The position numbers and the translations under genes were made by a program. A model generated the notes under the pieces. It was given only the letters and a program-made list of their open reading frames with translations, searched no databases and was not told the DNA's origin. From NCBI GenBank assembly GCA_944388865.1, contig CALXKM010000038.1, positions 1 through 44,554 on the forward strand: a DNA stretch of 44,554 bases. Reading direction: 5' to 3'. This document shows positions 1-40,274 of the stretch, piece by piece (the stretch's first letter is position 1; every line of letters starts with the position of its first letter). The DNA is from an uncultured Duodenibacillus sp. (GTDB lineage: Bacteria > Pseudomonadota > Gammaproteobacteria > Burkholderiales > Burkholderiaceae_F).

Positions 1-201
1 CTGGAGGCTTGCACCATTTTGAAACAGGGAGGAACTCAAAGCAAGGTCAAGATAGATGTCTTGCTGAAGCCATGAACCAACCGCATCTTGGTAAACCCCT
101 TGCAGTCCTTCAATCGAATTGCGCACACAGAGACACCCTGACCACGCATCTCCAGATGCGGCTGCTCCAATACCGTAAGCACCAATCCACCCTTTGCTGT
201 T
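1..201 (-). CDS. silent tail-fibre tip cassette G (runs off the window)
   Basis: On the minus strand an open frame starts at AAC (201-199), just after the stop of cassette F and the spacer GCCCG, and continues to base 1. It encodes 67 residues beginning N-S-K-G and reaching G-A-S-L-Q, the point where the other cassettes go on to their conserved xxACLxLxAIRY end. There is no start codon, ribosome binding site or promoter, so it can only be expressed after being joined to an upstream fibre gene. Family knowledge: receptor-binding tips of phage side-tail fibres carry an N-I-x-G start and an SSS(V/L)(Y/F)-like strand near the C-terminus; here that strand reads A-L-S-S-S-L-F. The array probably continues beyond the left edge. 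Confidence 0.75.
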
Positions 202-206
202 CGGGC

Positions 207-452
207 TCAGAACCTTATGGCGATCTGGCAGAGCAAGGAAGGGACTTGGAGACTCGAATTGTCAACAAAAAGCGAGGAAACGCGACTTGCTTCAAAGGTC
301 ACGTCAGTGCCACTTTCATCAACAAAGCTTGTCCCGAATCCGGCCTTGTAGGAACCGGTTTGACCTTGCTTCTGGCTGAAAGCGCCACTGCCAGTGACCC
401 AGCCGCCTTCAGACCAACGGTTGCGGTCGAGCCTGACTTCCCCAGCAATGTT
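207..452 (-). CDS. silent tail-fibre tip cassette F
   Basis: Minus-strand open frame of 81 residues from AAC (452-450) to TGA (209-207). It begins N-I-A-G, contains F-E-A-S-R-V-S-S-L-F (residues 53-62) and ends LLCQIAIRF. The sequence CCG directly before AAC lies after the stop of cassette E, so it is untranslated here and would become a Pro codon only when the cassette is joined to a fibre gene ending ...AP. There is no start codon or Shine-Dalgarno sequence. The last codons (LCQIAIRF) nearly match cassette B in DNA and protein, while the middle is unrelated, as expected for alternative tips on a shared trimer-forming end. Confidence 0.85.
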   Translation of the reverse strand, partial: NIAGEVRLDRNRWSEGGWVTGSGAFSQKQGQTGSYKAGFGTSFVDESGTDVTFEASRVSSLFVDNSSLQVPSLLCQIAIRF

Positions 453-455
453 CGG

Positions 456-601
456 TCAGTATCGGATAGCCACAAGGCTAAGACAAGCTGGAGGTTGAAC
501 AGTTGAGCCGGAGAAAATCGAGTTTCCTGTCTTCAACTCTAATTGCAAGTTCGAAAAACCTGTGGCTTCAGCATAGGTTCCGACCGCAACTGCTGGATCA
601 G
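456..601 (-). pseudogene. 3' two-thirds of split tip cassette E
   Basis: Minus-strand coding sequence for the last 46 residues of a tip cassette, from Pro (596-594) to TGA (458-456). It contains G-N-S-I-F-S and ends PPACLSLVAIRY. Upstream of about 597 the frame runs into the antisense strand of an integrase, so the cassette has lost its own start. The missing 27 codons lie at 6666-6746 on the plus strand. Joining through the shared CTGAT gives ...TEMPD-PAVAV... in frame and a 73-residue cassette of normal length. A minus-strand ATG at 905-903 is in frame, but what it encodes there is antisense to the recombinase and not real protein. Confidence 0.85.
597..601 (+). repeat. left inversion breakpoint, ATCAG
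   Basis: Five bases (ATCAG on plus) shared in inverted orientation with CTGAT at 6742-6746. The sequence switches here from cassette E antisense to Int1 coding. Exchange anywhere within these five bases with the partner site restores both genes in frame. No CCGAAC hexamer is near, so this is not a cassette boundary. Confidence 0.8.
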
Positions 602-1811
602 AAGCGATGCAGAAAAGACGTGGGTGCTGATCAAAATGCTTGGCGGCAAAAGACGCTCTTGGAAGGTTGGAAACTTTCCGAAGATGTCTCTTTCGGAAGC
701 CAGAAAGAAGGCCGCCGAAATGCTGAGCACCATTGAAGCCGGAGAAGATCCAGCTGAAAAAGAAAAACCGGCGCCAGTCACCAATCAGGTGACGGTGGAG
801 CAGTTGCTCCGCATGTTCATTCAGGCTGAAGATGCCCGCGGCCGATGGTCGACACGTGGCCGGCAAACACACGCCGAAAAGGCTGACGGGTGGATTCGCA
901 ATCACATGAGCTCAAAACTCAAGGCCACGAGAGTGAAAGATCTGACCCCGGCGGCGCTCGCCGATGAGTTTGGCGGGTTGATGCTCAGCATGCGATCAAC
1001 TCCAGAAAAGTGCATTGGAGAGATCAAACGGGCCATCGACTGGGGAATGGCCCTGGGGCACATTCCGCCCATGGCGAATCCTGCCGACGTCAAAGGCGCC
1101 CTTGGGCACCTGCTGCCTACGGCAAAGAATCGTCCCAAACGCACACACATGCCGTACCTGCCTCCTGAGACAATCCCCGACTTTGTGGCAATTCTTTCCA
1201 AAAAGTCCGGTTGCGCGGCCAGAACTCTTCTTTTTGCCATGCTGACAGCTTCTCGAATCTCCAACTGCCTCCAGTTGAGGTGGGAGCAGGTCGACCTCGA
1301 CAAAATGCTGATCCGGATCCCTCGAGACGAGATGAAAGTCAAAGGACTTTCCTTTGATCGCGTCACCCCGCTCTCTGCCCAGGCGGCAGCCATCCTCAAA
1401 GGCATGCCTCGCTTCTCGACCACTGGGGAAGGGCCGGATTGGGTTTTCCGTGACTTCGTCAGAGCAAAAGATCCTCTTTCCGAGGCCACTCTGAGAGCGT
1501 TGATCCGCAGAATCAATTCCGAGCAGAAAGAGCACGACTTTTTCGACCCCGTTGAGGTTGACTCGGCAGGGCGCCATCGTCTGCCGGTTCCCCACGGGCT
1601 AGCCAGAGCTTCTTTTGAAACCTGGGCGAAAAACCCAACGGCTTATGGCCACGAGCTTTTCGATCCAGATTTCATTGATGCCTGCTTGGATCACTTCTCG
1701 CCAAAATACGGCGGCGCTTACATGAGAGCCTATCCGCTGGAGGACATGAGAAAAATCCTGAACGCCTGGGCAGACTTCTGCTTTTCCAAAGTCATTGACT
1801 GTGAATCCTGA
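597..1811 (+). pseudogene. tyrosine recombinase Int1, C-terminal 403 codons (split by inversion)
   Basis: This is the body of a P4-type (DUF4102-containing) tyrosine recombinase, probably the prophage integrase. Visible parts are the end of the N-terminal arm domain (K-T-W-V-L-I then P-K-M-S-L-S-E-A-R), a core-binding region, and a catalytic domain with the first Arg in T-A-S-R-I-S-N, a Lys in D-E-M-K-V-K, an H-G-L-A-R motif, and the nucleophile Tyr in G-A-Y-M-R-A. H to R is spaced H-x-x-x-R rather than the usual H-x-x-R. The first 32 residues are absent here and lie at 6839-6742 on the other strand. The open frame does extend upstream to a TTG at 543, adding residues encoded antisense to cassette E, so a truncated protein is possible. 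The 3' end overlaps the Rz gene convergently by 20 bases. Confidence 0.85.
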
Positions 1812-2259
1812 TCACGGCGTCATGCTTGGCGCTGGCTCGCTGAGAAAGCTCTGCACCTTCTGAAGATAGATATGCACCCTCTTCGAGAAGTCTGACACAG
1901 CAGCTGAGTCGCTCCTCGAAATGCTTGCAGGGATTTTCACCGGAGGCGGGCAATCGGGCGCGATGATGCTCGGCGAGCTGGCGCACCCGCTCAAGCTCAA
2001 GACGCAGAGAGCCAGAATCGGCGCGGCTTTCAGCGAGTTCAGCCTTGCGCCTTTCGAGCTCATCCAACGCCTGCGAAAGTGCCTCATTTTGTTTGCGCTC
2101 ATTTGCAGAAATCTCCTTTTGTTTCTCCACCAAGGCCATTGCATGAGCGGCCTTCAGCTCATCAATGTCAGCCTGATACAGGGCCGCCGCGAAGCGGTAG
2201 CCGCCAAAAAAAATAGCGGCTGCCGCAAGGGCAACCGCTCCGATCTTCATCCAAGTCAT
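1792..2259 (-). CDS. Rz-like inner-membrane spanin subunit
   Basis: This 155-residue protein has an N-terminal membrane anchor (about residues 4-22, I-G-A-V-A-L-A-A-A-A) followed by a long charged region rich in Ala, Glu, Lys and Arg (about 30-95) that should form a coiled coil in the periplasm. That is the layout of Rz inner spanins, which fuse inner and outer membranes in the last step of host lysis. A lipoprotein frame (Rz1) is nested inside it in another reading frame, which is diagnostic. It follows the endolysin gene by 28 bases, with a short tandem repeat between them and only a weak ribosome binding site. The 3' end overlaps the Int1 end, giving converging transcripts. Confidence 0.8.
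   Translation of the reverse strand: MTWMKIGAVALAAAAIFFGGYRFAAALYQADIDELKAAHAMALVEKQKEISANERKQNEALSQALDELERRKAELAESRADSGSLRLELERVRQLAEHHRARLPASGENPCKHFEERLSCCVRLLEEGAYLSSEGAELSQRASAKHDAVIRIHSQ
1812..2063 (-). CDS. Rz1-like outer-membrane spanin lipoprotein (embedded in Rz)
   Basis: The 83-residue frame lies wholly within Rz in a different reading frame. From the chosen Met (2063) it has a basic N-terminus, a hydrophobic stretch A-P-I-L-A-L-C-V-L and a lipobox L-S-L-S-G-C with Cys27 as lipidation site, then a Pro-rich segment (PDCPPPVKIP) typical of Rz1. The frame is open further up to 2144, but the Met at 2063 gives a normal lipoprotein signal length. It should pair with Rz to span the periplasm. 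The nested architecture supports both calls. Confidence 0.8.
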   Translation of the reverse strand: MSSKGARLNSLKAAPILALCVLSLSGCASSPSIIAPDCPPPVKIPASISRSDSAAVSDFSKRVHIYLQKVQSFLSEPAPSMTP

Positions 2260-2265
2260 TACTGT

Positions 2266-2298
2266 CTACCTACTGGCTACCTACTGGCTACCTACTGT
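2266..2298. repeat. three tandem copies of an 11-bp unit
   Basis: The unit CTACCTACTGG occurs at 2266-2276, 2277-2287 and, lacking its last base, at 2288-2297. It spans the junction between endolysin and Rz and contains the endolysin stop codon (2290-2288 on minus). Loss or gain of a unit would move the spacing between the two lysis genes and could change the endolysin terminus. Confidence 0.85.
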
Positions 2299-2767
2299 CT
2301 TCATCAGACAGTTCGCCCATGCACCTCAAAAACTCAAGATCACGCCGATTGACAAGGCCAGCGATTTTTGTGCGTCCCTTGAACACCCAGCGCTTCAGCT
2401 CGTGACAAGCCCCATCGTAGTCTTTTGCATTAGCTTTTTTGACCAGTGTCGAACCGCAGAAATTTGCTGTCCCAACATTGAAAGCAAATGACACAAAAGC
2501 GTCGAATTCTTCTTGAGCGAGTGGAACCTCAATGCAGTTTTTTACCGCCTGTTCAGCATCCCGCACATCCTCCCGAAGAAGGCTCAGAGCTTCCGGAACG
2601 GTCACCGACTGCCCTAGTTTGACATCGGCAGTGTGCCCGAAGCCGATTGTCGGCACGTCCCCTTTTACGGGGATATATGCTTCCGGACGGAACCCCTCAA
2701 AGTCGGCAATAGCAAGGAGTCCGGCGGCGGACAAGCTCATGCCTGCCACGATGTAACGAGTTTTCAT
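2288..2767 (-). CDS. phage lysozyme-type SAR endolysin
   Basis: A 159-residue muramidase of the T4-lysozyme/P21 endolysin type (glycoside hydrolase 24). The catalytic Glu is in F-E-G-F-R near residue 24, followed by G-D-V-P-T-I-G-F-G-H-T, which supplies the Asp and Thr of the E-D-T triad. The N-terminus (K-T-R-Y then a weakly hydrophobic Ala/Gly/Leu stretch) looks like a signal-anchor-release segment, so the enzyme would be exported by the host Sec system and held inactive at the membrane until holin action. Its ATG overlaps the stop of the preceding 54-residue gene as ATGA, suggesting translational coupling. It cleaves peptidoglycan during lysis. Confidence 0.88.
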   Translation of the reverse strand: MKTRYIVAGMSLSAAGLLAIADFEGFRPEAYIPVKGDVPTIGFGHTADVKLGQSVTVPEALSLLREDVRDAEQAVKNCIEVPLAQEEFDAFVSFAFNVGTANFCGSTLVKKANAKDYDGACHELKRWVFKGRTKIAGLVNRRDLEFLRCMGELSDEDSR

Positions 2768-2928
2768 TTGGTGACCTCAAGAATGACGTCCGGATGTTTG
2801 ATAATTTCCAGACAAACTGCCCACAAAGCACCCAAGATAGGGGCTGCCGTCAAAACCACCATTGCCCATATCAGCCATTTCCTGATGTTCATCTTTCCGC
2901 TCACAAGGTCTCGTATAATTCTTTCCAT
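2764..2928 (-). CDS. 54-residue single-pass membrane protein in the lysis cassette
   Basis: A short gene missed by length filters: ATG at 2928-2926, preceded on the minus strand by a strong AGGAGG Shine-Dalgarno with proper spacing, ending TGA at 2766-2764 and overlapping the endolysin start by four bases. The protein begins M-E-R-I-I-R-D and has one hydrophobic segment (about residues 18-42, L-I-W-A-M-V-V-L-T-A). Its place between the holin-like gene and the endolysin suggests a second holin or antiholin, but I do not recognise the family. A terminator-like hairpin separates it from the upstream holin gene. Confidence 0.75.
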   Translation of the reverse strand: MERIIRDLVSGKMNIRKWLIWAMVVLTAAPILGALWAVCLEIIKHPDVILEVTK

Positions 2929-2959
2929 AGACCTCCTAGCTCTCGTTTGAGGTTAAAAC

Positions 2960-2991
2960 AAAGCCGCAAGCGCTCCAACGCCTGCGGCTTT
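2960..2991 (-). terminator. terminator-like hairpin inside the lysis cassette
   Basis: Perfect 9-bp stem (AAAGCCGCA with TGCGGCTTT) extended by three further pairs after one mismatch, followed on the minus strand by GTTTTAA. It lies between the holin-like gene (ends 2999) and the 54-residue gene (starts 2928), both read in the same direction, so it may set the holin-to-endolysin ratio. Confidence 0.6.
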
Positions 2992-2998
2992 CTCCTTT

Positions 2999-3238
2999 CT
3001 ATGCGTCATCTTCGACGCCTTCCTTTTTCCTGTTTGTGCGCCATTCCACCCACCACTTCCATGCCGTGTGCATGATCATCACGGCCAAGTAAACGCAGGT
3101 CAGAACCGGAACCAAATCCGGCACGGGCACTCCAAAAAATGTCAAACCGCTCACGGCTCCTCCAACTGCGACAGGAGCACTTTTCGCAAAACCGCTGCTC
3201 ATAACTGCCCCCTCAACTGCTTGTTCAACTTTTTCCAT
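2999..3238 (-). CDS. holin-like protein
   Basis: A 79-residue protein with a short charged N-terminus, two hydrophobic segments (about residues 20-37 and 40-60), a W-K-W-W-V-E-W aromatic stretch and a highly charged C-terminus ending E-D-D-A. This matches two-pass phage holins, which open the inner membrane to trigger lysis. It is the third gene of the minus-strand lysis run and almost touches the end of the upstream gene. An in-frame TTG six bases upstream (3244) is an alternative start. Assignment is by size, topology and context rather than a family motif. Confidence 0.6.
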   Translation of the reverse strand: MEKVEQAVEGAVMSSGFAKSAPVAVGGAVSGLTFFGVPVPDLVPVLTCVYLAVMIMHTAWKWWVEWRTNRKKEGVEDDA

Positions 3239-3240
3239 CG

Positions 3241-3795
3241 TCAACCTTCCTCAAGGCCAGAGCCTTTGAATGGATGGCAATAGACCCAATGCTGGCCGTA
3301 GATTCGCCCCGGCCCGGGCTCGCTCCAAATCTTCCATCCCGCCCCTGCCCGGACGCACTTCCAATGGCCGAAAATTTGATAGTGCTGGACAAAGTAAACC
3401 TGGAAACAGACCAGTTTTCCTTCTCGAAAAACCTTCCAGCGGCACGTGCCTGAAACGCCGGACTTGTCTCCGACAGTCGGGTCTCCGATGACTTCCTTGA
3501 CATCGCCGTCCTTGTGCTTGAATCCAATCACGTCAATGTTGAATCCGTAGGCACAATTTCTCAGAAGCCATGCCACTCGCCTGACGTAGGTCCAAAAGGC
3601 ACCGTCCTTGGGCCATCTCTCTCGGTGCCCCCTATCTCCGTCAAGGCTGTTGTCAGGGGTTTGAAACCATGACAAACAGGCCGGCAGCCACCCGGTCTCA
3701 TCCGCAAAAAGCGGGAGAACTGGAGCAAGTAAGCGCCCAATGATGTCCATGGCCAACGATGGCCAAATGAAAAGAAACCACTTCACGTAGACCAT
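3241..3795 (-). CDS. conserved phage protein of unknown function
   Basis: A 184-residue protein starting M-V-Y-V-K-W, chosen because GAGGAG lies just upstream of this ATG; the longer frame to 3879 lacks such a site. It has an N-terminal hydrophobic segment (W-F-L-F-I-W-P-S-L) and conserved-looking motifs WFQTPDNSLDGDRGHRERW and R-R-V-A-W-L-L-R-N. I associate this pattern with a conserved protein encoded near lysis genes in phages of Burkholderiales (the DUF7338 type, from memory) whose function is unknown. It sits between the tail chaperone and the holin-like gene with short gaps, so the set is probably one late operon. Confidence 0.6.
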   Translation of the reverse strand: MVYVKWFLFIWPSLAMDIIGRLLAPVLPLFADETGWLPACLSWFQTPDNSLDGDRGHRERWPKDGAFWTYVRRVAWLLRNCAYGFNIDVIGFKHKDGDVKEVIGDPTVGDKSGVSGTCRWKVFREGKLVCFQVYFVQHYQIFGHWKCVRAGAGWKIWSEPGPGRIYGQHWVYCHPFKGSGLEEG

Positions 3796-3811
3796 GGTTT
3801 TTTCTCCTCGA

Positions 3812-4426
3812 TCACTGAAGAATTTGGGGAACTTCCGGCCACTCCACAGCGTCTGGGAATCCCGGCTGTTGAGGAACATCGCGAAGCGCTTGCCGGTAGG
3901 TTTTCACGACTTCAAGATCCTCTGTTTTGATCGGATAATCTGCCGCCAACAGGAAGTCAGATTTGGCGAGCAGGTAGTCGCGCCGTGCCCTGACGGCCTC
4001 TTCCGCATCCAGCTTCAGCTCCTCTGGCGTCTTCTGTGGAATTTGCTCTGTCATCCACTCCATGTTGGGACCGCGCTTGATTTTGTGCGTCGTGACCGAC
4101 TGGTTAACGATCGTCTGAATGAGATTGCGCATTTCCTTGCAGTGAGGAGTCTGCTTGTAATGGTCAACAACAATCCCGTCAAAGTCCTCAGGATTAACGG
4201 GCTTTTTCTCGTATTCCCATTCTTTTTTTTCGACATTGAACTTGCAGAAGTAGTCCTGGTTCAATGCGGGCTTCACACGCGTGGCATTCTCAGGCATGAG
4301 CCAAACACCAGGCTCGAGAGGACTCTCCTGAACCATGATCGCGCCGGCGAGGTAACCCTCGTCGTCATAGAGAAATGCGCTCGAGGTCTGGGGAGTGCGT
4401 TTGACGTTTTCTTGAGATTCAGACAT
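3812..4426 (-). CDS. tail-fibre assembly chaperone-like protein
   Basis: The start at 4426 (M-S-E-S-Q-E) is preceded by AAAGGAG at good spacing, giving 204 residues; the longer frame to 4618 is antisense to Int2. The N-terminal part (F-L-Y-D-D-E-G-Y-L-A-G) and the C-terminal R-R-D-Y-L-L-A ... Y-R-Q-A-L-R-D-V-P ... Q-P-G-F-P pattern are typical of phage tail assembly chaperones encoded next to tail-fibre genes. It probably helps fold or attach the fibre whose tips are encoded in the cassette array. Its start codon overlaps that of the divergent recombinase Int2 (CATG at 4424-4427), so its ribosome binding site lies inside Int2 coding sequence. Confidence 0.8.
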   Translation of the reverse strand: MSESQENVKRTPQTSSAFLYDDEGYLAGAIMVQESPLEPGVWLMPENATRVKPALNQDYFCKFNVEKKEWEYEKKPVNPEDFDGIVVDHYKQTPHCKEMRNLIQTIVNQSVTTHKIKRGPNMEWMTEQIPQKTPEELKLDAEEAVRARRDYLLAKSDFLLAADYPIKTEDLEVVKTYRQALRDVPQQPGFPDAVEWPEVPQILQ

Positions 4427-5609
4427 GGAAAAATCTCCTTTAACTTCCAAAAAAATTGCGGGGCTCAAACCCCGCGAAAAACGTTTCACAATCTCGGACG
4501 GCCACGGCCTGACGCTGCGTGTCATGCCGTCCGGGATCAAAAGTTGGGTCTTCCGGCTGTCAGAGACCGGAAAGGTCACCGACATCACACTCGGAAGATG
4601 GCCGGAAATGAGCCTCAAGGCCGCTCGTCAAGAAGCGCGAAGACGCAGGAAAGCGGCTGGGCTCTCGCCGCAGCGCGGCTACGTCCTGAACGACGCCTTC
4701 CGGCTGTGGAAAAACTTAAAAAGAGGACGAATCGTTAGCTATCGAGACGAAAAGAAGCGCATTGAGCAGTACCTCATGAGCAAAATTGGCAGTCGTCAGC
4801 TCGATGAGATCACAGCGCCGCTCATCATTCACACCGTCATGCCGATCGAGAGATCCGGCAAGAGATCCACCCTAAAAAGAATCCTGATGCGCACGCGCGA
4901 GATTCTCGATCTGGCCGTTTGCGCAGGCTTCATTCCCCACAATCCGATCGAGCGAGTGAGCAAGGTTTTTGCACCTCCTCGCGTCAAGCCAATGCCAGCA
5001 GTCCACTGGAAAGAGTTGCCGGATGTCATGCGCGTCATGACCGAGGCGCCGCGCGACATGCAGCTTCTTTTTGCCTGGTCTCTGCTTTCCATGCTTCGTC
5101 CAGGCGAAAACGCCAAGCTCAAGTGGGAATGGGTCGATGGTGACGTACTAACCATCCCTGCCACAGAAATGAAAAAGAGACGTCCTCATCGCGTCCCGCT
5201 ATCTGAGCTGATGCTCAAACTTCTGTCGGTGATCCGCAAAGAATCGCCACACCCAAGGTCCGGGTTCGTCTTCCCCTCCAAGCGCTCCGGAAGCAAGCAC
5301 GTCTACCAACAGAACCTCACAAAATATCTTTTCAAAACTCCTCTCCGAGGTCGTCTAGTCGGGCACGGCCTTCGTTCCGTCGCTCGCGTCTGGCTCGCAG
5401 ATCACGAAAAGCCCTTCGAGGCTTCTGAGGCGTGCCTATCTCATGTGACCGGAAGCTCGGTTTCGCGCGCCTATCAACGCTCTGATTTTCTCGTGTCTCG
5501 AAGGTCAATAATGGACGACTGGAGCTCCTTCGTTTCCGACTGTGCCCGAAGTGCCGGCTTTTTGCCCGGAATCCTTTTTGTGGAGCCTGTTGGTGGAGGG
5601 GTGGACTGA
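4425..5609 (+). CDS. tyrosine recombinase Int2, candidate tip-cassette recombinase
   Basis: A complete 394-residue recombinase of the P4/DUF4102 type. The N-terminal arm-binding domain starts L-T-S-K-K-I-A-G-L-K-P and continues S-D-G-H-G-L-T-L-R-V and L-G-R-W-P-E-M-S-L. The catalytic domain has Arg in S-M-L-R-P-G-E, Lys in E-M-K-K-R-R, H-G-L-R (H-x-x-R), a His in C-L-S-H-V-T-G and the nucleophile Tyr in S-R-A-Y-Q-R-S, so all active-site residues are present. It lies between the tail chaperone and the cassette array, on the same strand as cassettes A-D and 108 bases before the first one. A second recombinase within a tail module and away from the attachment site suggests a dedicated fibre-switching enzyme. 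No good Shine-Dalgarno is seen before ATG 4425, implying weak expression. Confidence 0.88.
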   Translation: MEKSPLTSKKIAGLKPREKRFTISDGHGLTLRVMPSGIKSWVFRLSETGKVTDITLGRWPEMSLKAARQEARRRRKAAGLSPQRGYVLNDAFRLWKNLKRGRIVSYRDEKKRIEQYLMSKIGSRQLDEITAPLIIHTVMPIERSGKRSTLKRILMRTREILDLAVCAGFIPHNPIERVSKVFAPPRVKPMPAVHWKELPDVMRVMTEAPRDMQLLFAWSLLSMLRPGENAKLKWEWVDGDVLTIPATEMKKRRPHRVPLSELMLKLLSVIRKESPHPRSGFVFPSKRSGSKHVYQQNLTKYLFKTPLRGRLVGHGLRSVARVWLADHEKPFEASEACLSHVTGSSVSRAYQRSDFLVSRRSIMDDWSSFVSDCARSAGFLPGILFVEPVGGGVD

Positions 5610-5659
5610 CTCCGGCGCATGTGCAGGGCACCATCAAACGCAATCGAAATGAGATGGAA

Positions 5660-5687
5660 GTCGGCTGGCGAAATTTCATCAGCCGAC
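5660..5687 (+). promoter_or_regulatory. hairpin between Int2 and the first tip cassette
   Basis: Perfect 8-bp inverted repeat (GTCGGCTG at 5660-5667, CAGCCGAC at 5680-5687) around a 12-base loop that holds the smaller palindrome GAAATTTC. The following sequence GGAAATTCTTTTC is only mildly T-rich. It may be the Int2 terminator or a recombinase-binding element at the array entrance; the sequence does not decide. Confidence 0.5.
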
Positions 5688-5717
5688 GGAAATTCTTTTC
5701 AAAAGTTAGTCGCTCCG

Positions 5718-5954
5718 AACATCAAGGGCAACTTTTTGCCCAGAAGTGGTGTTGGCTTCGGAGGGCAGCCCGCAGACAGCGGGATCATCTACCCTGATTC
5801 AACAAAACTATCGAGAACAATTCAGTACATAAATGATGATACCAATCTGGGAACTTCCTTGCGAATCAGCGCTTCGAGATCGTCTTCAGTCTACGCGGAT
5901 GGTGCAGGGCTTCAAGTCCCTGCCTGTCTGACGCTCGTGGCAATCAGGTACTAG
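5718..5954 (+). CDS. tail-fibre tip cassette A (first in array, with open leader)
   Basis: From AAC at 5718 to TAG at 5952-5954, 78 residues begin N-I-K-G, contain I-S-A-S-R-S-S-S-V-Y and end VPACLTLVAIRY. Unlike the other cassettes, the frame is open upstream to an ATG at 5619, giving 111 residues in all, and the CCG before AAC is translated as ...L-V-A-P-N-I-K-G. This is the joint expected between a fibre shaft and its tip, so the 33-codon leader may be a remnant of the constant fibre region. No clear Shine-Dalgarno precedes the ATG. Family knowledge: a D-A-S-R-S-S-S-V-Y strand followed by a PxxxxLxxxIRY end marks trimeric side-fibre tips. Confidence 0.8.
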   Translation, partial: NIKGNFLPRSGVGFGGQPADSGIIYPDSTKLSRTIQYINDDTNLGTSLRISASRSSSVYADGAGLQVPACLTLVAIRY

Positions 5955-5960
5955 CGTCCG

Positions 5961-6194
5961 AACATTTGGGGTGAAATCTCCGCCGGTGCGGGTATTGGTT
6001 TCACAGCACGACCTGATGCTTCCTCTTCGGGAGCGCTGAATTTGATAGGAAATCTGACTTATGGCTTGCAAGCAGTTCAACAGACAGACTCAAAGATGAT
6101 CTCCATCAATGCCACGTCAACCAACTCTACCTATCAAAATGGCGCAAGTTTGCAACCTGCTGCTTGCCTCTGCCAGATCGCCATCAGATTTTGA
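5961..6194 (+). CDS. silent tail-fibre tip cassette B
   Basis: Open frame of 77 residues from AAC (5961) to TGA (6192-6194), beginning N-I-W-G, with N-A-T-S-T-N-S-T-Y near residue 53 and ending AACLCQIAIRF. It follows the stop of cassette A after CGTCCG. It has no start codon or ribosome binding site and so depends on recombination to be expressed. The end resembles cassette F (LCQIAIRF) and its Y-Q-N-G-A-S-L-Q resembles the end of cassette G, while the body is unique. Confidence 0.85.
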   Translation, partial: NIWGEISAGAGIGFTARPDASSSGALNLIGNLTYGLQAVQQTDSKMISINATSTNSTYQNGASLQPAACLCQIAIRF

Positions 6195-6200
6195 TGTCCG

Positions 6201-6410
6201 AACATTTCCGGTTCAGTAGACGGCTATCAGGCGTTGGTTACAGCCACGGGCGCATTCTCGATTGGCAATCCGGGCGGTGCGCCTTTCGCGATCGAACAGC
6301 AACAAAATCACACTTTCTTTTTAAATGCTGCCAGCCAAAACAGCATCTTCAAAGCAGGAGCTTCTTTGCAGGCTCCTGCATGTTTGGCCTTAGTTGCCAT
6401 CCGCTTCTAA
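6201..6410 (+). CDS. silent tail-fibre tip cassette C
   Basis: Open frame of 69 residues from AAC (6201) to TAA (6408-6410), beginning N-I-S-G, with L-N-A-A-S-Q-N-S-I-F and ending APACLALVAIRF. It is the shortest complete cassette. The spacer before it is TGTCCG after the stop of B. No start codon or Shine-Dalgarno is present. The conserved C-terminal segment next to a variable body is what would be needed to swap receptor-binding surfaces on a common trimer. Confidence 0.85.
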   Translation, partial: NISGSVDGYQALVTATGAFSIGNPGGAPFAIEQQQNHTFFLNAASQNSIFKAGASLQAPACLALVAIRF

Positions 6411-6413
6411 CCG

Positions 6414-6662
6414 AACATTAGCGGTCTGCTGTACGCGCAGGCTGTAGGGCAAAATCGTTCGAATATTTTTGTTCATGCTGCTTCTGCATTTTCCACAAAA
6501 AATGCAGGAGACACGGGTTCTGGATCGATCTCTTTTGACTATTCAACTGGAGGTAAAACGCTGTCCTACCTTGATTTTGATTCGTCGAGGGTCTCATCGC
6601 TTTATTCTGGGACGACCTTGCGAGTCCCGGCTTGTCAGTGCCTGGTTGCCATCCGCTATTAA
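6414..6662 (+). CDS. silent tail-fibre tip cassette D
   Basis: Open frame of 82 residues from AAC (6414) to TAA (6660-6662), beginning N-I-S-G, with F-D-S-S-R-V-S-S-L-Y and ending VPACQCLVAIRY. The boundary to C is the minimal form TAA-CCG-AAC. This is the longest complete cassette and the closest to the canonical F-D-A-S-R-S-S-S-V-Y motif of fibre tips. It has no translation start of its own. Confidence 0.85.
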   Translation, partial: NISGLLYAQAVGQNRSNIFVHAASAFSTKNAGDTGSGSISFDYSTGGKTLSYLDFDSSRVSSLYSGTTLRVPACQCLVAIRY

Positions 6663-6665
6663 CCG

Positions 6666-6746
6666 AACAGCACGGGGCACATCAATCTTCGAAGAGATGC
6701 GTGTTTGTCGGCTAGCGGGCTTGTTAGCAAGACGGAGATGCCTGAT
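6666..6746 (+). pseudogene. 5' third of split tip cassette E
   Basis: After TAA-CCG the frame AAC... encodes 27 residues from N-S-T-G-H-I-N to T-E-M-P-D and then, beyond CTGAT (6742-6746), becomes antisense to the start of Int1. The remaining 46 residues plus stop lie at 596-456 on the minus strand. The boundary with D keeps the conserved CCGAACA, so the cassette was intact at its 5' end before the rearrangement. Confidence 0.85.
6742..6746 (-). repeat. right inversion breakpoint, CTGAT
   Basis: Inverted partner of ATCAG at 597-601. To the left is cassette E coding sequence (plus), to the right the Int1 N-terminus (minus). The two copies bound about 6.15 kb. Confidence 0.8.
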
Positions 6747-6839
6747 TCTGAGCGTCAATCCGGACACTCCGCCCACTGCGGTGGTTTTGGTCAAGCATTG
6801 CACTTCTTTTGAGGTCAAAGTCCTAGCCACTTTTCCCAT
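6742..6839 (-). pseudogene. Int1 N-terminal fragment with its ribosome binding site
   Basis: On the minus strand an ATG at 6839-6837, preceded by AAGGAG six to seven bases upstream, opens a frame starting M-G-K-V-A-R-T-L-T-S-K-E-V, then A-V-G-G-V-S-G-L-T-L-R-I. This is the opening of a DUF4102 arm-binding domain of a P4-type integrase. After codon 32 it passes into antisense cassette E. Rejoined through ATCAG to 602 onwards it continues R-S-D-A-E-K-T-W-V-L-I and makes a 435-residue integrase. It starts about 250 bases from the 3' end of tRNA-His, the usual place for an integrase next to its attachment site. Confidence 0.85.
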
Positions 6840-7052
6840 GATGTTCTCCTTCTTTTGCTGGCCGAAATTGCTAGCCGTCGCACTCAAGGCCAATTTTTCC
6901 AAAACTTTTGAAAATCGGCCAGCAATCCGGACAGCAATGAGAAGGGAATTGAGGAGGATGCGGGATGATTCGGAAATGATTGTTTTGAATCAGATTGAAT
7001 CGTTGAGAAGCCTTGAAAACACAGGGCTGAAATGAATATCTCAGGCATGAAA
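6840..7052. other. gap between integrase start and tRNA operon
   Basis: There is no gene here. The stretch should hold the Int1 promoter and the prophage arm sites. An imperfect inverted repeat (GGCC-n-ATTTT types on either side of AAAACTTTT) lies at about 6889-6920. I could not identify a clear promoter or arm-site repeats. Confidence 0.4.
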
Positions 7053-7080
7053 AAACCCAGACTTGAATCAGTCTGGGTTT
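7053..7080 (-). terminator. terminator of the tRNA operon
   Basis: Eleven-bp perfect stem (AAACCCAGACT with AGTCTGGGTTT) and a six-base loop, followed on the minus strand by a run of T. It lies eight bases beyond the tRNA-His 3' end. Confidence 0.85.
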
Positions 7081-7087
7081 AGGTGAC

Positions 7088-7164
7088 TGGGGTGGGAGAT
7101 GGGACTCGAACCCACGACAACCGGAATCACAATCCGGGGCTCTACCAACTGAGCTACACCCACC
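7088..7164 (-). tRNA. tRNA-His (GTG), probable prophage attachment gene
   Basis: A 77-nt cloverleaf with the extra G at position -1, anticodon GTG in loop T-T-G-T-G-A-T, standard D-loop and T-loop (GGTTCGAGTCC) and an encoded CCA. The acceptor stem has a T6-T67 mismatch. Its 3' end faces the prophage, as expected if the element integrated here and rebuilt the 3' part from its own attachment sequence. The other attachment copy would be outside the window to the left. Confidence 0.93.
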
Positions 7165-7192
7165 GTCAAATTTTTATTCTCGTCAGCTGTAT

Positions 7193-7269
7193 TGGCCTGC
7201 CCGGCAGGATTCGAACCAGCGACCCTCGGCTTAGAAGGCCGATGCTCTATCCAACTGAGCTACGGGCAG
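7193..7269 (-). tRNA. tRNA-Arg (TCT)
   Basis: A 77-nt cloverleaf: acceptor CTGCCCG paired with CGGGCAG, anticodon TCT within CCTTCTAAG, T-loop GGTTCGAATCC and an encoded CCA. It is the middle gene of the Pro-Arg-His operon. Confidence 0.95.
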
Positions 7270-7284
7270 ACACTGCAGGAAGCT

Positions 7285-7361
7285 TGGTCGGGGTGAAGAG
7301 ATTCGAACTCCCGACATCCTGCTCCCAAAGCAGGCGCGCTACCGGGCTGCGCTACACCCCG
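7285..7361 (-). tRNA. tRNA-Pro (TGG)
   Basis: A 77-nt cloverleaf: acceptor CGGGGTG paired with CACCCCG, anticodon TGG in loop T-T-T-G-G-G-A, T-loop AGTTCGAATCT and an encoded CCA. First gene of the minus-strand tRNA operon, directly behind a strong promoter. Confidence 0.95.
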
Positions 7362-38978: not shown

Positions 38979-40274
38979 ATGCGGAAAATCGTATGGGCTT
39001 TCTGTGCGCTGGCGCTTTCGACGTGGGCCTTGAATCTGGCAGTCAATCCTCCGGCAATGAACGGCCGCGGCATCGTGCACGAGTTTTTTTATCTCAACGG
39101 TGTTCTAGCCTGGGGCTTCATGGCAATGACAATCGTCATTGCCGCGCGCCCGGCATGGCTAGAGAAGGCAACGAAAACGCCGCTCGACGAACTCTATCGC
39201 TGGCATCGGACGTTGGGCATTTGGGCAGTGGTGCTTACCGTTGTGCACTTCTTTACGAAGGCGTTGATGCAGCCTGTGCTTGTCTTCATGACGCTTGAGC
39301 CGACGCCTAAGATTTCTCCAGATCCGAACATTGCGGGCTTTGATGCTTTCTGGCAGTGGCTCAGAGGCTTTGCAGTGACCTCTTCGGAATGGGCGACGGC
39401 CGCTGCGGTGATTTTGTTTGCGATTTCTTTTGTTGGCATGGTGCGCTATCACAAGTGGCTCTCAACCCATAAGCTCTTCTCAATGTTGTTTCTTATCCTT
39501 TCGGTGCACTGCATCCGGCTGATGGATGCTGCCGATATCCTGACGCCTTTCGGCATCCTCAACATCGCCATTACCGCCGTCGGCAGCTGGTACTCGATCG
39601 TGCTGCTTGTCCACGGTGCTGGTAAGGAAAAGTCCACGACAGGACGCATTGTGCGCGTCACGCAGGAAGACGGCATGACGCTTGTTTGCATCAAGCCTGA
39701 TCGCCGATTGCCGGTGCAGCCTGGACAGTTTGCTTTTCTGCGCACCCCTGGGCACGAAAAGCATCCGTTTTCAGTTGCCGGCGTTGAAAATGACGGCTCC
39801 TTGGTCTTTGTCGTCAAAGCACTGGGCGACTATACGGCGCAGCAGGTACCAAATCTGCAGCCGGGAGAGGCGGTGATCGTGGAAGGTCCTTGGGGCGCAT
39901 TTACGCCCAACTACGCACTCGAGCAGCAGCTTTGGCTTGCAGGCGGCGCCGGCATTGCACCGTTTTGCGCCTGGCTCGAAGACGCTTCAAAGAAAGTGCA
40001 CGGCGCCATTCGTCTGGTGTGGTGCATCAAATCCAAAGAAGATGAGCCGCTTCACGAAAAAGTTGCGCAGCTTGCAAAAGCCGCAGGCGTTGCGCTCGAG
40101 ATATATGAGTCGAAGAAAAAGCGCCTCAACGCAGCCGAGCTCTTTGATTCAGCGCTTCCTCAAACCGTGGCGCTGTGTGCTGGTTCAAGTTTGGCGCAGG
40201 CTGTGAGTGCTGCGTACATCAATGCCGGCGGCAGACCCGAGAGCATTCGTCGCGAGCATTTTGTTTGGAGATGA
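38979..40274 (+). CDS. ferric-reductase-like flavohaem membrane oxidoreductase
   Basis: A 431-residue protein. The first about 215 residues hold some six membrane helices with paired His (W-H-R-T-L-G ... V-V-H-F-F and S-T-H-K-L-F ... S-V-H-C-I-R) for two b-type haems. The C-terminal part is a ferredoxin-NADP-reductase-like module: FAD-binding H-P-F-S-V-A, and NAD-binding G-G-A-G-I-A-P-F and C-A-G-S-S. This is the ferric reductase/NADPH-oxidase type; the physiological acceptor is not evident. ACAGGAG precedes the ATG. It stands alone between two terminators. Confidence 0.88.
   Translation: MRKIVWAFCALALSTWALNLAVNPPAMNGRGIVHEFFYLNGVLAWGFMAMTIVIAARPAWLEKATKTPLDELYRWHRTLGIWAVVLTVVHFFTKALMQPVLVFMTLEPTPKISPDPNIAGFDAFWQWLRGFAVTSSEWATAAAVILFAISFVGMVRYHKWLSTHKLFSMLFLILSVHCIRLMDAADILTPFGILNIAITAVGSWYSIVLLVHGAGKEKSTTGRIVRVTQEDGMTLVCIKPDRRLPVQPGQFAFLRTPGHEKHPFSVAGVENDGSLVFVVKALGDYTAQQVPNLQPGEAVIVEGPWGAFTPNYALEQQLWLAGGAGIAPFCAWLEDASKKVHGAIRLVWCIKSKEDEPLHEKVAQLAKAAGVALEIYESKKKRLNAAELFDSALPQTVALCAGSSLAQAVSAAYINAGGRPESIRREHFVWR

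Follow-up and report, generated by a model that had tools for sequence, protein, structure and literature searches.

A probable tail-fibre shufflon with an arm-bearing tyrosine recombinase in prophages of Sutterella, Parasutterella, Duodenibacillus and their kin

The closest described counterparts of the array of tail-fibre tip cassettes at positions 1-6746 of contig C38 of an uncultured gut Duodenibacillus (44,554 bases, analyzed as a whole and called the window; draft genome of 2.49 Mb) are the Rin shufflons of Bifidobacterium prophages (PMC6109161) and Eggerthella lenta clade 1 prophages (PMC8778435). In these shufflons, a tyrosine recombinase lies at one end, the constant gene of a receptor-binding protein at the other end and the C-terminal variants between them; each variant is preceded by a short site for crossover (11 bp and 8 bp), and one variant is fused to the constant part. 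In layout, plasmid R64 (Rci, pilV) is also alike, with opposed tips in site-flanked segments, an adjacent invertase gene, a constant shaft gene and multiple inversions, but in the cited part of that work (PMC11852207) the product is a plasmid pilus adhesin and the sfx site is longer, with a 7 bp core and two 12 bp arms. Phage tail fibres also have their C-terminal end altered by DNA inversion in the Min, Gin and Cin systems, although with a serine recombinase (PMC6109161). For the tail-fibre shufflon of FRphi, which uses a serine recombinase, PMC13418256 reports that only one of three tips infected the tested host, and thus tip choice can decide infection. For Pseudomonas fluorescens Pf-5, PMC2647930 reports that the integrase of prophage 03 is similar to Rci-type shufflon recombinases.

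We consider it very probable that the window carries part of a tail-fibre shufflon found in prophages of Sutterella, Parasutterella, Duodenibacillus and their kin. In the proposed mechanism, the prophage fibre gene would encode a constant shaft of the tail-collar type with Leu-Pro-(Asn/Asp)-Ile-x-Gly at its end. The spare C-terminal tips beside it lack start codons, and each would open with a short site (CCGAACA in the window) that also encodes Pro-Asn. The adjacent tyrosine recombinase would invert the segment bounded by the fibre-gene site and by an array site of opposite orientation, which would remove the current tip from the fibre gene and bring another one in frame. The fibre would change its receptor-binding end in this way while a single tip is expressed, and most likely the prophage can keep changing the tail part that recognizes the bacterium. 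We infer that this recombinase performs the switch and that switching continues in culture.

As in Rin, the recombinase adjoins the tips and is distinct from the prophage integrase, and a short site lies ahead of the variants and inside the constant gene, with three of the 18 tips in two loci of relatives (L041 and L067) off the exact pattern. In contrast to Rin, which is described as devoid of an N-terminal arm domain, the window recombinase has one (PF13356). Furthermore, the site sits here inside a conserved Pro-Asn/Asp joint and its spelling varies by locus, the fibres are tail-collar fibres of Burkholderiales, and the arrays hold up to 19 tips as opposed to the five full-length forms that are reported as possible for Rin. 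Because the array would work like Rin but its enzyme bears an arm, we regard it as a new variant of phage shufflon. A literature search gave no paper on a Sutterella prophage shufflon, and among the matches listed no title names these hosts. The array family offers an arm-bearing shufflon enzyme, 2 to 19 tips and several site spellings paired with several enzymes, and its named carriers include Sutterella wadsworthensis DSM 14016 and Duodenibacillus massiliensis Marseille-P2968T, the latter (G007) of the same genus as the window genome. Directionality and the matching of enzyme and site become directly testable with these arrays.

The order recombinase, tips, fibre gene was found in the loci L041, L065/L070, L067, L068 and L049, and arrays in the relatives consist of 2 to 19 tips that mostly alternate in strand. 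Behind the D. massiliensis recombinase (L041) lie 12 strictly alternating tips, the last of which is fused to a tail-collar fibre gene. In Candidatus Aphodousia (L065 and L070, which overlap on a single contig) the space from recombinase to fibre is taken up by 18 silent tips and a fused one, the 18 tips of L065 alternating as well. S. wadsworthensis (L067) has six tips, the fused one included. The loci L049 and L068 have just two tips each and are a simple switch; in L044 and L045 two tips are followed by the contig end. Such alternation, a feature of R64-type shufflons, is less clear in the window genome, where the strand order is minus-minus-minus and plus-plus-plus-plus in the window and minus-plus-plus-minus on C9, another contig.

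The window recombinase (4425-5606) is composed of arm, core and catalytic integrase domains. Its arm region matches PF13356 (Arm-DNA-bind_3) with an E-value of 1.8 × 10−17 as well as the arm-domain structures 3jtz and 3ju0, and its PF00589 domain has intact R, HxxR, H and Y motifs, the catalytic residues being kept in the five sequences aligned. Four aligned relatives are 54-59% identical to it, and most other integrases found are 23-36% identical. In a tree of 37 sequences of at least 300 residues each, the 11 array recombinases (that of the window and ten relatives) formed one clade with support of 100/100, apart from 26 other integrases. Among the latter, 22 came from loci without a tip match (flanks mostly about 1.5 kb), three from array loci (L041, L044 and L066) at a distance from the tips, and the remaining one was the cut integrase int1 of the window. 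Left out of the tree were L035, L039 and L040 (no tip matches), the cut L009 integrase, two G022 pieces at contig starts, an interrupted G082 gene (no tips seen) and a partial copy on contig C2 of D. massiliensis (tips present). Nine of the 11 clade recombinases directly adjoin tip matches. The recombinase of L071, which belongs to the same genome as L041 and whose frame crosses an N, is separated from its tips by about 1.5 kb that includes single-N scaffold joins, and that of L066 is followed by a site and a tip start and then by the contig end.

The clade is present in 10 of the 67 genomes of the family, two of them (G022 and G082) with partial genes; G012 was removed from the 11 genomes above the threshold because the tree showed an ordinary integrase. 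Among 399 genomes drawn from the order, with at most four candidates scored per genome, three carried the clade, all of this family. A clade recombinase was present on two viral contigs, one of which is the D. massiliensis record itself. Of 50,697 phage records, 243 matched the recombinase, all at less than 60% identity and with 33% as the best among the matches listed. Single-sequence recombinase scans of viral and genome contigs confirmed nothing, and an alignment-based query gave two loci in viral contigs and six in genome contigs. At L069 (G082, 3458-4039) a clade recombinase matches over approximately its first 124 residues and then continues into other sequence, with no tips found in the 4 kb covered.

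Every complete tip in the window starts at CCGAACA, read in phase as Pro-Asn. The joint pattern CCGAACANNNNNGG occurs eight times in the window against 0.32 occurrences expected, and seven of the eight are cassette starts. The eighth match, at 39324-39337, is far from the array and perhaps due to chance. The protein motif is conserved across loci, whereas its DNA spelling is uniform within a locus and different between loci: CCGAACA in 12 of 13 sites of the window genome (tip X included once for each of the two contigs that carry it), CCGGACA in 10/10 sites of D. massiliensis, CCAAACA in 19/19 sites of Ca. Aphodousia (18 silent tips and the fibre's own site) and CCGAATA in 5/5 sites of S. wadsworthensis. 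With background codon use taken from the same genes, the chance of a uniform Pro codon is 6.5 × 10−6, 4.5 × 10−5, 3.2 × 10−10 and 1.2 × 10−3, respectively. As codon use makes such uniformity improbable, it fits what is expected of a DNA recognition site within a conserved protein motif. A TTA codon precedes the site in all seven fibre copies seen; a second CCGAATA match in L070, inside the collar domain, was left out of the joint count. One silent tip of D. massiliensis (L041, 10740-10966) has an altered, out-of-frame joint and may be dead. An ordinary collar fibre with the identical protein motif is encoded by MT835830 (6 kb viewed), with no array in the listed frames, so the protein motif need not derive from an array.

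The window holds the recombinase end of one array, disarranged by an inversion. Its tip-like frames lie in two blocks, 1-602 on the minus strand (n = 3) and 5715-6746 on the plus strand (n = 5), and the region between them (603-5609) holds an integrase remainder, a spanin-like gene, an endolysin, a DUF7338 protein, a tail-fibre chaperone and the tyrosine recombinase. The features are as follows, with the basis of each in brackets.

1-204, minus strand: silent tip X, cut by the left contig edge, with a site at 204 (site pattern; tip profile E-value 1.3 × 10−4)
207-455, minus strand: silent tip B, complete (frame; tip profile)
456-602, minus strand: 3' half of split tip G (90% identity to C41:18310-18456)
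603-1811, plus strand: C-terminal part of the phage integrase int1, cut by the inversion (PF00589; match to an intact integrase)
1792-2265, minus strand: spanin-like gene with an overlapping small lipoprotein-like frame (frames; named by eye)
2288-2776, minus strand: endolysin, a phage lysozyme (PF00959, PHROG 7)
3241-3903, minus strand: DUF7338 phage protein (domain match)
3812-4426, minus strand: tail-fibre assembly chaperone (PF16778, PHROG 4912)
4425-5609, plus strand: array-associated tyrosine recombinase with arm domain, the proposed tip invertase (PF13356, PF22022, PF00589; clade; catalytic motifs)
5610-5714, plus strand: in-frame leader ahead of tip A (translation)
5715-5954, plus strand: silent tip A (site; tip profile)
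5958-6194, plus strand: silent tip E (site; tip profile)
6198-6410, plus strand: silent tip F (tip profile; its end recurs on C9)
6411-6662, plus strand: silent tip D (site; tip profile)
6663-6746, plus strand: 5' half of split tip G (88% identity to the first 84 bases of C41:18232-18456)
6747-6839, minus strand: N-terminal 31 codons of int1, on the far side of the inversion (match to an intact integrase)
7088-7361, minus strand: cluster of tRNA-His, tRNA-Arg and tRNA-Pro

A tip profile built solely from 39 tips of other genomes was searched against the six-frame translation of the window and matched eight pieces, five complete and three cut or split, with E-values from 3.9 × 10−14 to 0.037; all five complete tips scored 5.7 × 10−10 or lower. 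The weakest piece, 6663-6746, is not significant by its score (0.037, compared with a best value of 0.033 in 20 shuffled windows), and it was therefore identified as a tip by its 88% DNA identity to the intact homologue on C41. Six cassettes and one half have no ATG, GTG or TTG in their first seven codons, the earliest possible start being at codon index 7 to 69. Tip A is the sole one with in-frame ATGs, which lie in the leader upstream of its site; this leader is possibly a remnant of the fibre shaft end. Nine tips of the window genome are 27-50% identical overall and 6-36% identical in their middle. A Pfam scan of five single tips gave no meaningful match.

The two pieces of tip G, 6663-6746 and 602-456, match consecutive parts of the intact C41 homologue (88% and 90%). 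Similarly, positions 603-1808 of int1 match residues 66-454 of an intact integrase on contig C47 of the window genome (29%), and the piece at 6839-6747 is 56% identical to its residues 15-46; against the D. massiliensis integrase the latter piece was not significant (E-value 6.7). Tip G and int1 are both broken at the two borders of 603-6746, and a single 6.1-kb inversion therefore explains both. The ends of the inversion share only a few bases and differ from the usual crossover site, and either illegitimate recombination or a join made in assembly may have produced it. In its present form the second integrase, int1, is broken.

The original prediction, made from the letters of the window, had described these cassettes as an array of interchangeable, promoterless tips for one fibre, and on the whole it is supported: the cassettes are real, they differ in the middle, and the array does continue past the left edge, which is the contig end and cuts tip X. 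The stated lack of start codons applies to the six cassettes and one half, with tip A set apart by the ATGs of its leader. However, the frames are not consecutive on one strand, since they lie on two strands with the genes of 603-5609 between, and the last cassette, G, is a half frame, its remainder lying at 602-456 on the opposite, minus strand. Also overlooked were the recombinase gene beside the tips, the presence of tips on both strands, the mechanism of inversion and the fact that the last cassette is split.

Contigs that share a tip or fibre gene differ beyond the site. In D. massiliensis, C17 and C2 have an identical array order, and C20 has the same fibre gene with a tip that is silent on C17; C17/C2 and C20 agree through CCGGACAT and diverge directly after it, on the fibre side as well as on the recombinase side. 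Repeated blocks surround a shrunken two-tip array on C20 (L071, 1-7600), where a recombining mix may have confused the assembly. In the window genome, 203 of the 204 bases of tip X are equal on C38 and C9:1-204, with abrupt divergence past the site. The first 127 bases of the two copies are identical and the sole difference is at 128. As this identity may reflect the overlap length of the assembler, the X copies may be two real ones or stem from a mixed population. The stretch 6380-6417 (the last 31 bases of tip F and the next site) recurs on C9 beside tip X, and its CCGAACA is followed by tip D on C38 and by tip X on C9. There are two neighbours for tip X on its site side and two for tip F at its end, and all diverge at CCGAACA. 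The differing joints switch at a site of 7-8 bp, with unrelated sequence beyond. A further joint on C9 (L008, 198-235), in which the end of tip F meets another tip in inverted orientation, lies within that end at CCAAACAT. This sequence differs from the usual site by a single base, and the joint is likely a slip of the enzyme, possibly a secondary-site event. The shufflon may explain why several contigs end inside an array.

A fibre gene with a matching joint, which had been proposed as a check of the original prediction, was found: the window genome has one fibre gene with the same joint, at C9:1177-668, and the constant part of its end, with the joint TTA-CCGAACATC, was detected once in the genome. 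With this same-joint fibre gene and contigs that switch at the joint, the view of the cassettes as interchangeable tips for one fibre is upheld. The C9 fibre resembles PHROG tail-fibre and tail-collar families, and the fibres of the arrays likewise match tail-collar and tail-fibre families. For the D. massiliensis fibre the best solved relative was the 'long tail fiber' 8kec (E-value 9.5 × 10−7), the match to T4 gp12 being weak (0.0055 at best). A scan of viral contigs with the C9 fibre end confirmed nothing. The neighbours of the C9 fibre match terminase, head-tail adaptor, tail and virion proteins, and we read this gene set as podovirus-like; baseplate genes are present in S. wadsworthensis and Aphodousia. 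Contig C41 (L010, 14716-18586) carries a second recombinase, 54% identical to that of C38, accompanied by a complete tip and by the beginning of a further one. The C41 array is at a second prophage end near ribosomal-protein-like genes and runs off the contig end. We think that C41 and C9 are one prophage and C38 the end of another, the contigs themselves being unlinked.

Several points weigh against the shufflon interpretation. The five plus-strand pieces of the window face the same way, and sites so oriented cannot give inversions and would be expected to give deletions. The fibre gene lies outside the window, on a different contig, and may belong either to the array of C38 or to that of C41. 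The joints off the exact pattern are those of two of the 12 tips in L041 (D. massiliensis) and one of the six in L067. All the evidence of exchange comes from draft assemblies, at neither read nor culture level: eight single Ns occur within the first 9 kb of C20, with none in 2991-7061, which holds the joints, and the shared tip X is possibly an assembly or population effect. The tip profile matched nothing among solved structures up to an E-value of 5, and structure predictions were poor, with a predicted local distance difference test score of 35.5 for the L049 fibre end alone and 45 for window tip D (from a nine-row alignment with one sequence entered twice). The suggestion that the tips bind receptors, and may thereby widen the host range, therefore rests on their position and their similarity to fibre C-termini. 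Finally, another recombinase could act on the site.

Alternatively, the array might be a graveyard of old fibre ends, which homologous recombination between phages replaced over time and left without further use, with the recombinase merely a second integrase. The cut tips and the inversion-broken integrase of the window would suit such decay, as would the out-of-frame joint in one L041 tip, but the window keeps five complete open frames, one locus holds 19 tips, each locus adheres to a single site spelling despite the choice of codons, the switch is sharp at 7-8 bp with unrelated sequence beyond, and the recombinase clade sits at arrays. We consequently regard the graveyard as very unlikely. 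It is slightly less probable again that the tips are real and variable but exchanged by another enzyme, such as host XerCD, the phage integrase or general recombination. The short site (7-8 bp) leaves room for this, but a clade recombinase is at an array in 11 of 11 cases (directly in nine), the adjacent enzyme keeps its catalytic residues in the five sequences aligned, and the array lies between recombinase and fibre gene, as in Rin. A serine recombinase of the Gin/Min type is ruled out because the enzyme is a PF00589 tyrosine recombinase with the R, HxxR, H and Y residues.

The cassettes could also serve a tailocin-like particle of the host, an option that the original prediction had left beside a phage. 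The first 7 kb of the window, with integrase, lysis, chaperone, recombinase and tip genes only, would be compatible with it; C9, however, has terminase, head-tail adaptor and virion proteins beside its fibre, and relatives were found in viral contigs. The tailocin is therefore the least probable of these alternatives, and the phage genes of C9 point to a prophage, provided that the array belongs with C9. A single gene broken by sequencing errors does not fit, as the tips differ from one another and a separate site goes with every one of them.

Beyond the shufflon itself, we tentatively propose a wider history, for which we would put the chances at somewhat below even. An arm-bearing integrase lineage may have turned once, in the Sutterella family, into a dedicated fibre invertase with a 7-8 bp site in a conserved protein motif, the spelling changing with the enzyme, and may then have spread between podovirus-like and myovirus-like prophages. 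Tips would pass between two arrays of one cell, so that co-resident prophages would share one tip library; tip X, present on two contigs of the window genome, is the basis for this sharing.

No reverse transcriptase of a diversity-generating retroelement was present among the ten window proteins that were domain-scanned, although no search was aimed at one. The small lipoprotein frame that overlaps the spanin-like gene (1792-2265) resembles nested phage spanin pairs. The tRNA cluster at 7088-7361 likely marks the chromosomal border of the element.

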